Positions 10,126-19,483 of a stretch of DNA of 42,874 bases are shown in pieces. The notes under the pieces are model-generated. The model saw only the letters and a program-made list of their open reading frames with translations, searched no databases and was not told the DNA's origin. A program made the position numbers and the translations under genes. How positions within the stretch are numbered: the stretch's first letter is position 1; every line of letters starts with the position of its first letter. Source of the DNA: Lentimicrobium sp. (GTDB lineage: Bacteria > Bacteroidota > Bacteroidia > Bacteroidales > Lentimicrobiaceae); contig JANJXJ010000164.1 of the NCBI GenBank assembly GCA_024709105.1, forward strand, positions 1 through 42,874, in the 5' to 3' direction.

Positions 10126-12318
10126 ATGGCTTCACCTGCTACCCGGAAAGTTAAAATTCCCAAATACAGAACCGGCAGAATTTTCCTTTTCCCGATTCTG
10201 TTGTATTTTCTTTTGGTTTTCCCGGTTCTGGGATTTATGCTGCTGAAAAGTTTTCCTGAGATACAGGAGAAAAGAGGATTTTCTTCGGTGATAAAAATTG
10301 ACTCCACCGAATTTGAAAATATCAGGCAGAATGGCGATCCTGTTGTAAGTTTTCAGAAAGGATTTGAAGCCGGTTTGAATTCAAAGAAACTTGAAAAAAC
10401 TAATGACAGTGTTGATTTGACTGTAATTGCTGATAGTTTGACGGCTTTGCTTGACTCCATTCCGGCTGACAGTGTACAGGTCACAAATTCCAATAAAACA
10501 TCTTCAGGTAAAAGAGGAGCATCAAGCGCTTTTTCTTCTTCAATTTCAAATCTTTTTAATTATGTTCTGATAATTTCTACACTGGCAGGGCTGCTGGTAA
10601 ATTATCCATTTAAGAGGTATTTCAGGCGAAAAAGGCTCAGAAAATCCATTTCGCCGCGTTTATACAGATATTGCAGAAAATTCCTGCTCTATACACCCAT
10701 CATTAACAGTGGTATTGTTTTCATTGCTTTCACTATAGTGCATGGAATCATGATTTTCCATTTGCTATCAGCAAACGATCTTGAGTATGATACAGGCAGA
10801 AGACTGTTTACCAATTACTTATTTATTTCGTTGGTTGCATCTCTGCTCACGGTGCTGTTTATTTATTTCTGGCAAAAGCATAGGGTTCATATCAAATACA
10901 TAGAGCATATTTATACCCGCGACGAGCTGCAGAAAAGGATTTTTGGGAAAAATCATGGTAAAATCAGAAACCGGCTATACATAGCCAGCGCCATGACAAC
11001 CTTATTACCACTTACGATAGTATTGTTGTATCTCATTTTGAGCCTTACGCCGGTAAAAGAAATGGGAGAGTTATCGCAGGAACAGATGAAAATAGTACTT
11101 GGACGGCTGGTAGATATACTAGGGCCAGAAGCCGATGTTGAGAAGCTGTTTAACTCAGATGGTTTCAACGGTTTGTATTATATCAGTGCCCTGGATAATG
11201 CATTGATGTTCGGGGGTATTTTAAGTGGTATTTTTGTTTCTTTTATATATATTCTGTTTTTTGTAAACTGGTCAACGGCTGGTATTGTAAGTCCTGTGAA
11301 TGAGCTTGTTACGAGTATGAGAAAAACCGGTGAAGGGATGCTCGACAATTATACCATTGTTAGGACCAACGACGAAATAGGGGTGATGTCCGAAGGTTAC
11401 AATATGATGACTACCCGGCTCAGGGATTATATATTCAGAGTATCCCAGATGAACGAGGCTTACAGCAGGTTTGTACCCAATCAGTTTCTGGAATTTCTTG
11501 GAAAAGAGAACTTTGTTGACATTCAGCTGGGCGATCAGGTTCAAAAGGAAATGACTGTTCTGTTTTCTGATATCCGCGGTTTTACCGAGTTGTCAGAATC
11601 CATGACACCCAAAGAAAATTTTGATTTTATCAATCATTATCTGGGGTACATGGAACCAGTGATCCGAGAGAATAACGGCTTCATTGACAAGTTTATAGGT
11701 GATTCTATAATGGCATTGTTCCACGTGAAAGTAGACGATGCGATTGATGCAGCGATACAAATGCGTAAGACTCTTAACCGGTTTAACGAGGATCGCACCG
11801 ATCAGGGCAAACCACCTATTGACGCAGGAATTGGCATACACACAGGTAATCTCATGCTGGGAGTAGTAGGCGGCGAAGGCCGCATGGATGGTACGGTTAT
11901 CTCTGATGCTGTAAATCTGGCTTCCCGGCTGGAGGGGCTTTCTAAAATTTATCATGTTAATATTATCATCAGTGAGGATACCCTCATCAAACTCGAAAAT
12001 CCATCAAAATATAGTTTCAGGTTTCTGGATATTGCCAGGGTAAAAGGTAAAAAGGAAGCAGTTTATGTTTTTGAGGTGCTCGACGGAGAGCCGGAAGAAA
12101 TCAGAAACCTGAAAATTGAAACCAAATCGCTGTTCGGAAAAGGTATTGACTTATATAAAAACAAAATGTTTGAAGATGCCCTTGAGGTTTTCTCAGAGGT
12201 AGTCAAAATTAATGCAAATGACAGTGTAGCAGCATTTTACATTAACCGTTGCAAACGTAACATCACACGCGGCATTCCTGACGACTGGAGCGGAATTGAG
12301 GTATTCGATGCAAAATAA
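10126..12318 (+). CDS. Membrane class III adenylate cyclase with HAMP domain
   Basis: A 730-residue protein. The N-terminal half has about six membrane segments (near residues 20-40, 140-160, 190-215, 230-250, 285-305 and 355-375), then a HAMP-like linker (about 375-430). The class III catalytic domain spans about 470-650. Metal-binding aspartates are visible at D482 (FSDIRGF) and D526 (FIGDSIMALF). K522 and D594 fit the adenine-selecting pair, and N597 and R601 (DAVNLASRLE) are the transition-state residues. So an active adenylate rather than guanylate cyclase is predicted. A C-terminal tail of about 75 residues looks TPR-like (AFYINRC). The gene also contains a parS-like sequence over the FHVKV codons. 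The DUF4175 gene follows 170 bases downstream. Confidence 0.9.
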   Translation: MASPATRKVKIPKYRTGRIFLFPILLYFLLVFPVLGFMLLKSFPEIQEKRGFSSVIKIDSTEFENIRQNGDPVVSFQKGFEAGLNSKKLEKTNDSVDLTVIADSLTALLDSIPADSVQVTNSNKTSSGKRGASSAFSSSISNLFNYVLIISTLAGLLVNYPFKRYFRRKRLRKSISPRLYRYCRKFLLYTPIINSGIVFIAFTIVHGIMIFHLLSANDLEYDTGRRLFTNYLFISLVASLLTVLFIYFWQKHRVHIKYIEHIYTRDELQKRIFGKNHGKIRNRLYIASAMTTLLPLTIVLLYLILSLTPVKEMGELSQEQMKIVLGRLVDILGPEADVEKLFNSDGFNGLYYISALDNALMFGGILSGIFVSFIYILFFVNWSTAGIVSPVNELVTSMRKTGEGMLDNYTIVRTNDEIGVMSEGYNMMTTRLRDYIFRVSQMNEAYSRFVPNQFLEFLGKENFVDIQLGDQVQKEMTVLFSDIRGFTELSESMTPKENFDFINHYLGYMEPVIRENNGFIDKFIGDSIMALFHVKVDDAIDAAIQMRKTLNRFNEDRTDQGKPPIDAGIGIHTGNLMLGVVGGEGRMDGTVISDAVNLASRLEGLSKIYHVNIIISEDTLIKLENPSKYSFRFLDIARVKGKKEAVYVFEVLDGEPEEIRNLKIETKSLFGKGIDLYKNKMFEDALEVFSEVVKINANDSVAAFYINRCKRNITRGIPDDWSGIEVFDAK
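11717..11732. other. parS-like site inside the cyclase gene (14/16)
   Basis: TGTTCCACGTGAAAGT differs from the parS consensus TGTTyCACGTGrAACA only at the last two positions. It lies within the coding sequence, in frame to encode part of LFHVKV. Because two better sites lie 5-7 kb away it could be a weak ParB site, but with two mismatches it may also be coincidental. Confidence 0.4.
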
Positions 12319-16583: not shown

Positions 16584-16660
16584 CAAGCGGGAAAAAACTA
16601 TGGCTTTTTCGAACTGTTTACCAACGAAAAAGAAGAGGCTTAGTCCTTGAATTTTTTCCA

Positions 16661-16676
16661 TGTTCCACGTGAAACT
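16661..16676. other. parS site (15/16) at the start of mnmG
   Basis: TGTTCCACGTGAAACT matches the ParB (Spo0J) binding palindrome TGTTyCACGTGrAACA at 15 of 16 positions, only the last base differing. It overlaps an ATG (16660-16662), so that the bases would encode MFHVK if translated. parS sites are bound by ParB-CTP clamps to organise and segregate the origin region. Confidence 0.85.
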
Positions 16677-16683
16677 TTTTCTG

Positions 16684-18555
16684 ATGTTTAAAGAATATGA
16701 CGTAATTGTTGTAGGTGCCGGACATGCCGGGAGTGAGGCAGCAGCTGCAGCAGCAAATATGGGTTCTTCGGTTCTCTTAATTACCATGAACATGGCTGCT
16801 ATTGCACAAATGTCGTGCAATCCCGCTATGGGAGGCATTGCAAAAGGGCAAATTGTAAGGGAAATTGACGCAATGGGTGGGTATTCAGGCATTGTTACTG
16901 ACTATTCCATGATTCAGTTTAGAATGTTAAACAGGTCAAAAGGACCTGCCATGTGGAGCCCCAGAGCCCAAAGCGACAGAATGAAATTCTCTGAAAAATG
17001 GAGACTAATGCTTGAATCTACCACAAATGTTGATTTTTGGCAGGATACGGTAACCGGAATCATCACAAAAGATGGCAGGGTAGGGGGTGTTAAAACTTCG
17101 ATGGGACAGGAAATAAGGTCTAAAGCTGTTATTCTAACCAATGGCACCTTCCTGAATGGTATCATACACATTGGCACCAAGCAGTTTGGAGGCGGCCGTA
17201 TGGGTGATAAACCCTCACATGGAATTACAGAAAACTTAGTAAACCTTGGCTTTGAATCGGCTCGTTTAAAAACCGGAACACCAGTCAGGGTTGATGGCAG
17301 AAGCATTGACTTCAGCAAACTGGAAGAACAACCCGGTGATGAAAATCCTGGTAAATTTTCATATACAGATACACCAAAACTTACGAACCAAAGGAGCTGT
17401 TATCTGGCATATACCAGCCCGGTTGTTCATGACATTCTCAGATTGGGATTTGATGAATCTCCTATGTATTCCGGTAGAATTGAGGGCCGGGGGCCGCGTT
17501 ACTGCCCTTCAATTGAAGATAAAATTGACAGATTCAGCGATAAAAGCAGACATCAGCTCTTTGTAGAGCCTGAGGGATGGGATACTGTTGAATATTACAT
17601 CAATGGATTTTCTTCATCTTTACCAGACCATATTCAATACAAAGCGCTGCAACGTGTTCCCGGTTTTGAAAATGCAAAGATCTTCAGGCCCGGATATGCC
17701 ATTGAGTATGACTATTTCCCTCCCTATCAACTAAAATTCACCCTCGAAACACGGTTGATTGAAAATTTGTATTTCGCTGGACAGATAAATGGAACTACTG
17801 GTTATGAAGAAGCCGCCGCTCAGGGATTGATGGCAGGAATAAACGCTCATTTGAAGTTAAATGAAAAAGAGCCTCTCATTTTAAAACGCTCAGAAGCTTA
17901 TATTGGTGTTCTTATTGATGACCTTATTACCAAGGGTATTGATGAACCCTATCGTATGTTTACTTCCAGAGCAGAATATCGCATTTTATTGCGTCAGGAC
18001 AATGCTGATTTAAGGCTTACCCATCTTAGCAACAGGATTGGACTTGCATCAGATGATAGAGTTAAAAAAGTTGACTTCAAACTAGAGGCAATCCACAAGA
18101 GTATTGAATTCCTGAAAAATCTAAGCGTTTCACCTGACGCTATAAATGGGCTACTTGAACTGAAACAAACTGCACCAATATCTCAAAAGGTAAAGCTTGA
18201 CAATATTGTTTTGAGGCCTCAAATTTCTTTGCTGGAAGTAATTGAAACCATTCCACAGGCAAAAGAGCACTTTGCATCGTTTTCTGAACACCAGGCAGAA
18301 ATCATTGAAGAAACTGAGATTCTCATGAAATATGAAAGGTATATTGAAAAAGAACGCGAGATTGCTGACAGACTATCAAGAGTTGAAGACATGCCATTAA
18401 AACCTGATTTCAACTATCAGGCGCTGCCTTCACTATCTTTTGAAGCGCGTGAAAAACTTTCTAAAATCAGGCCAGCTACCCTTGGACAGGCCAGCAGAAT
18501 TAATGGAGTTTCTCCTGCTGATATTTCAGTTTTAGTTGTATTTTTGAGCAAATAA
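16684..18555 (+). CDS. mnmG: tRNA uridine-5-carboxymethylaminomethyl(34) synthesis enzyme MnmG
   Basis: A 623-residue FAD enzyme that acts with MnmE to modify the wobble uridine of several tRNAs. The Rossmann FAD motif is VIVVGAGHAGSEAA, followed by MSCNPAMGGIAKGQIVREIDAMGG, GTFLNGIIHIG and GRIEGRGPRYCPSIEDK, all standard for GidA/MnmG. Length is normal. The frame is open from an upstream ATG at 16660, which would add MFHVKLFL; that ATG sits in a parS site. I prefer 16684 because MFKEYDVIVVGAGHAG starts at the distance usual for the family. mnmG is often close to the replication origin, which fits the parS sites. Confidence 0.96.
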   Translation: MFKEYDVIVVGAGHAGSEAAAAAANMGSSVLLITMNMAAIAQMSCNPAMGGIAKGQIVREIDAMGGYSGIVTDYSMIQFRMLNRSKGPAMWSPRAQSDRMKFSEKWRLMLESTTNVDFWQDTVTGIITKDGRVGGVKTSMGQEIRSKAVILTNGTFLNGIIHIGTKQFGGGRMGDKPSHGITENLVNLGFESARLKTGTPVRVDGRSIDFSKLEEQPGDENPGKFSYTDTPKLTNQRSCYLAYTSPVVHDILRLGFDESPMYSGRIEGRGPRYCPSIEDKIDRFSDKSRHQLFVEPEGWDTVEYYINGFSSSLPDHIQYKALQRVPGFENAKIFRPGYAIEYDYFPPYQLKFTLETRLIENLYFAGQINGTTGYEEAAAQGLMAGINAHLKLNEKEPLILKRSEAYIGVLIDDLITKGIDEPYRMFTSRAEYRILLRQDNADLRLTHLSNRIGLASDDRVKKVDFKLEAIHKSIEFLKNLSVSPDAINGLLELKQTAPISQKVKLDNIVLRPQISLLEVIETIPQAKEHFASFSEHQAEIIEETEILMKYERYIEKEREIADRLSRVEDMPLKPDFNYQALPSLSFEAREKLSKIRPATLGQASRINGVSPADISVLVVFLSK

Positions 18556-18574: not shown

Positions 18575-19483
18575 ATGTTTCACGTGGAACAAACTGAATT
18601 TTCTTCAACTTTCCAATGCTTACTATGTGATAATAAGCAATTTACAAAACATCTCACCGTAAAAGACCATTTCTTATCGGGAGAAACATTTGAACTGATT
18701 TGCTGTTCGCACTGCGGATTGATTTCAACTACTCCCGGGTTAAAAGAAGAAGACTTGTGGAAATATTATAAATCCGAAAATTACATCTCACACTCTTCAA
18801 AAGCTGGCACTACTTTTGAAAAAATTTATCAGGCTGTCAGAAACTACACCATTTCAAAAAAAGTAAAATTAGTTTCAAGGTATTCCAGGGGCAAAAACAT
18901 TCTTGACATAGGTTGCGCTACCGGAGAGTTCTTAAATGCTTGCAGGCAACATGGGTTTTCTGTGGAAGGGATAGAGCCTAATGAAAATGCCAGACAGATT
19001 GCGCTGCAAAATCATAATCTAAGCATCCATGGTTTGGAGATGATCAAATCCCTTTCTGACAATAGTTTTGATGTGATTACATTATGGCATGTTCTTGAAC
19101 ATGTTCCAGATTTGAACGAAAGAATGAAGCAGATTTCACGTCTATTAAAACCAGATGGTACCGTATTTTTAGCATTGCCGAATCATGAGAGTTTTGACGC
19201 GAAACACTATCGGGAGTTTTGGGCTGCATATGATGTGCCCAGGCATATTTTTCACTTCAACAAAAAATCACTTGCTTATTTGGCTAACAAATTTAATTTT
19301 GTTGTTTCAGATATTCTTCCCATGAAATTTGATTCGTTCTATGTTTCTTTGCTCAGTGAAAAATATAAAACCGGGAAATCGTCGGTTGTTTCAGCAGTAT
19401 ACTTTGGCTTGTTGTCAAATTTTAAAGCAAGAGGCATACAACCCAATCATTCCAGCTTAATTTATGTACTAAAAAAGAAATAG
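18575..19483 (+). CDS. Zinc-ribbon class I SAM-dependent methyltransferase
   Basis: A 302-residue protein. An N-terminal treble-clef/zinc-ribbon is shown by C15-x2-C18 and C44-x2-C47. A Rossmann methyltransferase follows, with motif I NILDIGCATGEFLNAC and the acidic residue in VEGIEPNENAR, then DVITLWHVLEHVPD and LLKPDGTVFLALPN. This layout (zinc finger plus Methyltransf_23-type domain) is common for enzymes acting on small molecules or sugars; the substrate is unknown. The first codons MFHVEQ are dictated by a perfect parS site overlapping the ATG, and no other ATG is available before the zinc finger. It starts 19 bases after mnmG. Confidence 0.87.
   Translation: MFHVEQTEFSSTFQCLLCDNKQFTKHLTVKDHFLSGETFELICCSHCGLISTTPGLKEEDLWKYYKSENYISHSSKAGTTFEKIYQAVRNYTISKKVKLVSRYSRGKNILDIGCATGEFLNACRQHGFSVEGIEPNENARQIALQNHNLSIHGLEMIKSLSDNSFDVITLWHVLEHVPDLNERMKQISRLLKPDGTVFLALPNHESFDAKHYREFWAAYDVPRHIFHFNKKSLAYLANKFNFVVSDILPMKFDSFYVSLLSEKYKTGKSSVVSAVYFGLLSNFKARGIQPNHSSLIYVLKKK
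18576..18591. other. parS site, perfect 16-bp palindrome match
   Basis: TGTTTCACGTGGAACA matches TGTTyCACGTGrAACA at all 16 positions. It overlaps the start codon of the methyltransferase gene (ATG at 18575-18577). A second near-perfect site lies 1.9 kb away at the start of mnmG, which makes a chance match very unlikely. Confidence 0.93.

Follow-up and report, generated by a model that had tools for sequence, protein, structure and literature searches.

Organization of the locus

The window, by which we mean the whole stretch of 42,874 nucleotides analysed here from a Lentimicrobium sp. assembly, contains mnmG followed by a gene for a SAM-dependent methyltransferase (Table 1). Two parS words bracket mnmG, one upstream at 16661 and one downstream at 18576. 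An earlier note on this DNA had reported that the downstream word matches the ParB/Spo0J consensus at all 16 bases, and we confirm the match, scoring against the 16-bp consensus of the ParB/Spo0J type. The site begins directly after the A (18575) of the methyltransferase ATG and covers the gene from bases 2–3 of codon 1 through bases 1–2 of codon 6. The encoded protein has an N-terminal CxxC...CxxC that appears zinc-ribbon-like by eye, and no NCBIfam model scored above its cut-off for the methyltransferase.

Table 1. Features of the parS–mnmG–parS locus and related sites in the window
Feature	Position	Strand	Remarks
Weak parS-like site	11717..11732	.	14/16, CACGTG core intact; inside adenylate-cyclase ORF 10126–12318, 5 kb upstream of the pair
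Second parS, TGTTCCACGTGAAACT	16661..16676	.	15/16; in mnmG leader; homologous site in 16 genus loci and 1 more
mnmG (gidA)	16684..18555	+	GIDA, E 6.3e-160; likely start ATG 16684 (MFKEYDV)
Class I SAM-dependent methyltransferase	18575..19483	+	Methyltransf_23, E 2.2e-33; ORF start MFHVEQ, MFHVEQTEFSSTFQCLLC
parS, TGTTTCACGTGGAACA	18576..18591	.	16/16, 0 mismatches to TGTTYCACGTGRAACA; 20 bp after mnmG stop
Core GTG of CACGTG, rival start codon	18584..18586	+	In frame in 19/19 genus genomes

The longest open reading frame would start mnmG at 16660 (MFHVKL...), a start that we rejected. In 16 genus loci, the mnmG-side parS is spread over all three frames (6, 5 and 5 loci), and the canonical ATG follows it in 16/16. 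Because the upstream parS changes frame while the place of the ATG at 16684 is kept, 16660 is improbable, and mnmG probably starts at 16684. Gene callers may miscall the mnmG start likewise wherever parS precedes the gene.

The window holds three sites with up to three mismatches, a number reached by none of 100 shuffles (shuffle mean 0.56), and the whole genome holds six with up to two mismatches, compared to one for a reversed-pattern control. The word at 11717 was considered as a third parS and set aside, since it is weak, lacks a counterpart at the matching distance in one genus mate (L008, up to two mismatches) and is possibly a chance match.

The genome encodes a single ParB_N match (E 1.6e-33) with a ParA-like ORF directly upstream, forming a parA-parB operon. 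This ParB scores above the TIGR00180 cut-off and below that of the Noc model (243.7 of 315 bits). Among solved structures, ParB and Spo0J chains match it best, and Noc chains only slightly less well. The window word, when compared with the Noc-binding site consensus, has the ParB core CACGTG. We rejected the Noc-binding site reading on these two grounds, the ParB score and the core. Judged from sequence, the 16-mer at 18576 is very probably a chromosomal parS.

Sites with at most one mismatch occur in each of the 18 genus mates, one to three per genome and 37 in total, and the reversed-pattern control at the same threshold has matches in one of these genomes. The mnmG/methyltransferase locus accounts for 34 of the 37: 18 at the methyltransferase start, 15 at the mnmG start by coordinates and one further mnmG site. 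The genome-wide search thus finds sites clustered rather than evenly spread, and parB is present, as the earlier note's assignment would have it. Of the remaining three, found at other places, one is an exact match and two are without the CACGTG core. This exact word (G077:C107, at 1480 of locus L264) is the third exact parS of one genus-level genome. Its contig is 3.5 kb long, and a divergent ORF that is transposase-like by eye lies about 50 bp away; the word could be a mobile-element parS or a binning error.

Association with mnmG across Bacteroidota

We searched a phylum set of 60 genomes, our own included, for exact sites. Such sites are present in 44 genomes and absent from 16, and the reversed pattern matches in none. 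Among the matches listed for 40 phylum genomes (own genome left out), at least one exact site lies no more than 1 kb from mnmG in 37 genomes, 62 of 74 sites are that close, and 12 genomes carry parS on both sides of mnmG within 200 bp. Exact sites also lie about 5–13 kb from mnmG in G003, G008, G049 and G029, so that in some lineages the link with mnmG is less close.

For the methyltransferase, 80 named loci were fetched with six peptide patterns, one of which, MFHVEQTE, may enrich for overlap, and the 18 genus mates were found by searching whole genomes for the protein, which matched in 18/18. With four repeats of named contigs and the window's own copy left out, 106 loci were analysed. Only two of the 80 named loci lack mnmG; both are from Chitinophagaceae and both lack parS, and only one of them (L042) is informative, as the other (L035) has 282 bp upstream. 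Where an mnmG stop could be located upstream, parS with up to two mismatches lies between mnmG and the methyltransferase in 101 of 102 loci.

The gap from the mnmG stop to parS has a median of 18 bp (68 of 101 within 30 bp), whereas the gap from parS to the first conserved part of the methyltransferase has a median of 93 and an interquartile range of 41–529. This difference ties the site to mnmG. The methyltransferase is not universal, since at E 1e-40 the whole-genome search gave no match in 44 out of 80 relatives, and these 44 all fall outside the genus. In 73 of the 106 loci the methyltransferase frame excludes parS, which is then leader only, so the overlap is lineage-specific. The site belongs to the end of mnmG and not to the methyltransferase.

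A literature search of titles and the beginnings of abstracts, with few subscription papers, returned no report of mnmG-flanking parS in Bacteroidota or of a parS that provides a start codon. The link of parS with mnmG may nevertheless have been published before.

Position relative to the replication origin

Our own assembly being too fragmented for this purpose, we sampled 20-kb stretches from five other genomes for their GC skew and took the origin interval from the best two-arc fit. In three of the five, parS lies inside the best interval (G056, G028 and, at its edge, G042). The best interval has its middle about 93 kb from parS on contig 1 of G060, a genus mate, and about 440 kb from it in G032, where the skew is weak. 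We rejected dnaA as an origin marker, because in G056, G028, G032 and G042, the four genomes in which we located it, 0.55–1.33 Mb separate it from the skew origin of the best fit. In G051, dnaA is about 9 kb from mnmG; with this exception, the single-contig genomes that we looked at have parAB and dnaA far from parS.

Origins were likewise placed by parS cluster and skew in a Hi-C study of 12 gut bacteria, including two Bacteroidetes; it used TGTTTCACGTGAAACA as the parS consensus and reported that dnaA and the origin do not coincide in every case (PMC10197239, accessible text). Unlike here, that text mentions neither mnmG nor an overlap with a start codon. The parS–mnmG–parS arrangement would mark a segregation locus, at or near the origin, in many Bacteroidota. 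A 1.4-Mb contig of G060 (C2, L167–L180) has a plus-to-minus GC-skew of its own and is possibly a second replicon or a misassembly.

Function and effect on expression

By its family, the parS at 18576 would most likely serve to load ParB for segregation of the chromosome. ParB from the distant parAB operon would be expected to load there and spread. To judge from the sequence, the site most likely shapes the methyltransferase N-terminus passively.

The earlier note also raised the possibility that ParB loading affects expression, in which case loading or spreading would repress or time the methyltransferase or mnmG. We regard such a regulatory role as possible but unlikely. The placement of parS in the mnmG leader and on the methyltransferase start speaks for it, as does the example of Pseudomonas aeruginosa, in which ParB represses promoters beside parS3 and parS4 and the adjacent genes rise without ParB or functional parS (PMC5521831, accessible text). 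The same text, however, refers to an earlier parB-mutant comparison with no obvious change beside parS. The P. aeruginosa sites stand beside gene starts near the origin, as ours probably do, but they are intergenic, whereas the window site overlaps a gene, and regulation was shown for them and is a candidate role here.

RNA around the methyltransferase start, moreover, is not unusually structured. Folded by themselves, the parS words give -3.4 to -6.3 kcal/mol, and 60-nt windows average -5.0 in the 19 genus genomes versus -5.1 at 23 further gene starts in the window, which are unverified. These averages give no sign of a regulatory mRNA hairpin at the start, and we rejected that reading.

The translation start

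Across the 19 genomes of the genus, the base before parS is A in nine, T in four, G in three and C in three. The codon flush with the site, formed by this base and the first TG of parS, is accordingly ATG in nine, TTG in four, GTG in three and CTG in three. The earlier note held that parS overlaps an ATG start with no other Met before the zinc finger. The overlap is there in the window, but the ATG is conserved in only 9/19; the second statement is true of ATG, but the parS core contains an in-frame GTG, a legal start. That ATG is not enriched at the flush codon (P=0.21) counts against a start there. An A at -3 of the flush codon, which counts in favor of it, occurs in 15/19 (P=0.0006 if the background is set to 40%; the measured value is 42%), and A at this position aids initiation in Flavobacterium johnsoniae (PMC6847099, accessible text).

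Because the flush codon is ATG in only nine genomes and CTG in three, the core GTG is a rival start. In the genus loci L118, L121 and L126 it is the sole ATG, GTG or TTG before the first Cys. Outside the genus it is the sole such codon before the conserved part in L010, L012 and L015, and in these three loci an in-frame TAG stands directly before it. Translation of the methyltransferase probably starts inside parS; going by the sequences, we favor the flush NTG as the start codon, with initiation at the core GTG a real but lesser possibility.

Another reading keeps parS in the untranslated leader, or has it translated but not used for initiation, which would occur instead at a TTG on either side of the site or at some non-standard codon. 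In most relatives parS is indeed leader, the flush codon is CTG in 3/19, and an in-frame TTG exists outside parS in 4/19 (L008, L119, L134 and L139, at +32, +35, +38 or -40). This reading nevertheless seems improbable to us, as the other 15 genomes offer no ATG, GTG or TTG outside parS. In addition, the frame of the methyltransferase-side site is kept in 19/19 while the mnmG leader copy drifts, which argues for a start inside parS.

Conservation of the DNA word

For the genus comparison we aligned the methyltransferase-side parS of our genome and its 18 mates. The site is exact and in frame in 19/19, and its distance to the first Cys is 41 nt in 17 genomes and 35 nt in two. All 16 positions are invariant except degenerate position 12, which is G in 12 genomes and A in seven; this exchange, as parS allows, flips residue 5 between Glu and Lys. 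The flanks vary, with A in 13, T in four and C in two genomes directly after parS (+17) and all four bases directly before it (-1).

In 77 columns the residue is degenerate and does not vary; just three of them also keep a single codon, namely F2 (TTT), H3 (CAC) and V4 (GTG), all inside parS. The chance of hitting just these three columns is 1.4e-5, and CAC and GTG are minority codons elsewhere in these genes (30% and 24%). The 19 rows are related and are not 19 independent cases; the 77 columns were used as the control because they share this relatedness. Frozen parS codons next to drifting flanks point to selection on the DNA word.

MFHVEQ might instead be conserved for the function of the protein, the palindrome being incidental, and F, H and V are in fact invariant at residues 2–4 in 19/19. 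Their codons are invariant too, however, unlike in 74/74 other invariant-residue columns; residue 5 (E/K) and residue 6 (Q/H) change where parS or its border permits; and parS is outside the methyltransferase frame in the 73 leader-only loci. The frozen codons together with the E/K and Q/H changes led us to reject conservation at the peptide level and leave this explanation very little room. The view of the earlier note that the DNA site dictates the N-terminus is therefore upheld: when the first codons of orthologues are compared, the DNA word is conserved rather than the peptide, and beyond codons 2–4 the peptide varies only as parS allows. The peptide FHV(E/K)(Q/H) would be a by-product of parS, presumably neutral.

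Taken together, these observations support a model in which the window site is the downstream half of a widespread Bacteroidota parS–mnmG–parS arrangement, and the first methyltransferase codons are selected as the DNA word of a ParB site and not as peptide. We put the probability of this explanation as a whole at roughly 0.85. The idea that the 16-mer arose by chance or serves another regulator has in its favor that the motif is short and has a single exact copy per genome (in our assembly of 4,468,264 bases in 239 contigs, 96.8% complete, the one at 18576), but against it stand an expectation of 0.0047 exact sites per genome at the window's base composition, the exact word at the same place in all 19 genomes, the unmatched reversed pattern in 60 genomes and the encoded ParB; a chance origin is excluded, and another regulator is hardly credible.

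Origin of the overlap

Several relatives outside the genus have an ATG 6–12 bp after parS, for example L011, L014, L023, L029, L030 and L054. The 106 loci divide into 23 that start in parS, six whose frame is open through parS with an ATG kept downstream (L026, L034, L041, L048, L135 and L143), 73 with parS in the leader and four without a site. Besides the 19 genus loci, those starting in parS are L010, L012, L015 and L146 (4 of the 87 other loci classified); L012 and L015 have an inner second parS site. In L013, L017, L036 and L057, stops separate parS from the conserved part.

On a tree of the 106 methyltransferases, built by a quick method with SH-aLRT support only, with the root not inferred and two long branches meeting, a start in parS requires at least five changes. 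A repeated origin is thus likely on the sequence evidence. Loss of an ATG just downstream of parS would leave the start inside the site, and in the window's genus the ATG after parS would have gone and the methyltransferase frame come to begin within parS. Bacteroidetes mRNAs lack Shine-Dalgarno sequences (PMC6847099, accessible text), and a ParB site at a gene start may perhaps be tolerated for this reason. The absorption of parS into the gene start is lineage-specific and is constant in the window's genus.

A more far-reaching scenario, which we consider speculative and rather improbable, is that parS–mnmG–parS is the ancestral Bacteroidota centromere, left behind with mnmG as parAB and dnaA moved. 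Initiation without Shine-Dalgarno sequences would then have let ParB sites settle on gene starts, CACGTG would have become both ParB centre and initiation codon in one genus, and ParB loading would set methyltransferase, and perhaps mnmG, expression with the cell cycle.

Relation to known parS systems

The locus resembles chromosomal ParABS systems in its 16-bp word, its clustered sites, its chromosomal-family ParB and, in three of the five sampled genomes, its place in the best skew-origin interval. It differs in the link of the sites with mnmG, in their distance from parAB and dnaA in the single-contig genomes (dnaA of G051 excepted), and in that one site, in the window's genus, probably includes a start codon. 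In P. aeruginosa, nine of ten predicted parS lie within genes (PMC4368675, accessible text), so there too a ParB site doubles as coding sequence. The accessible text mentions no start codon for those sites, whereas here the site gives the N-terminus and probably the initiation codon.

The window thus offers a clean natural case of a segregation site that sets a protein N-terminus, with base-level evidence that DNA and not peptide is conserved. It suggests that in Bacteroidota chromosomes and metagenome bins the centromere and probable origin can be located simply by turning to mnmG instead of dnaA, and it cautions that N-termini reading FHV(E/K)(Q/H) next to mnmG are parS in translated form. 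Whether ParB loading disturbs gene starts also becomes testable, as does the question which codon within parS ribosomes can use.

Finally, several Flavobacterium loci (L053, L060, L063, L072, L084 and others) carry tandem parS arrays upstream of mnmG, with up to about ten exact or near-exact words spaced about 40–50 bp apart, compared to the two sites that a genome of the window's genus carries.
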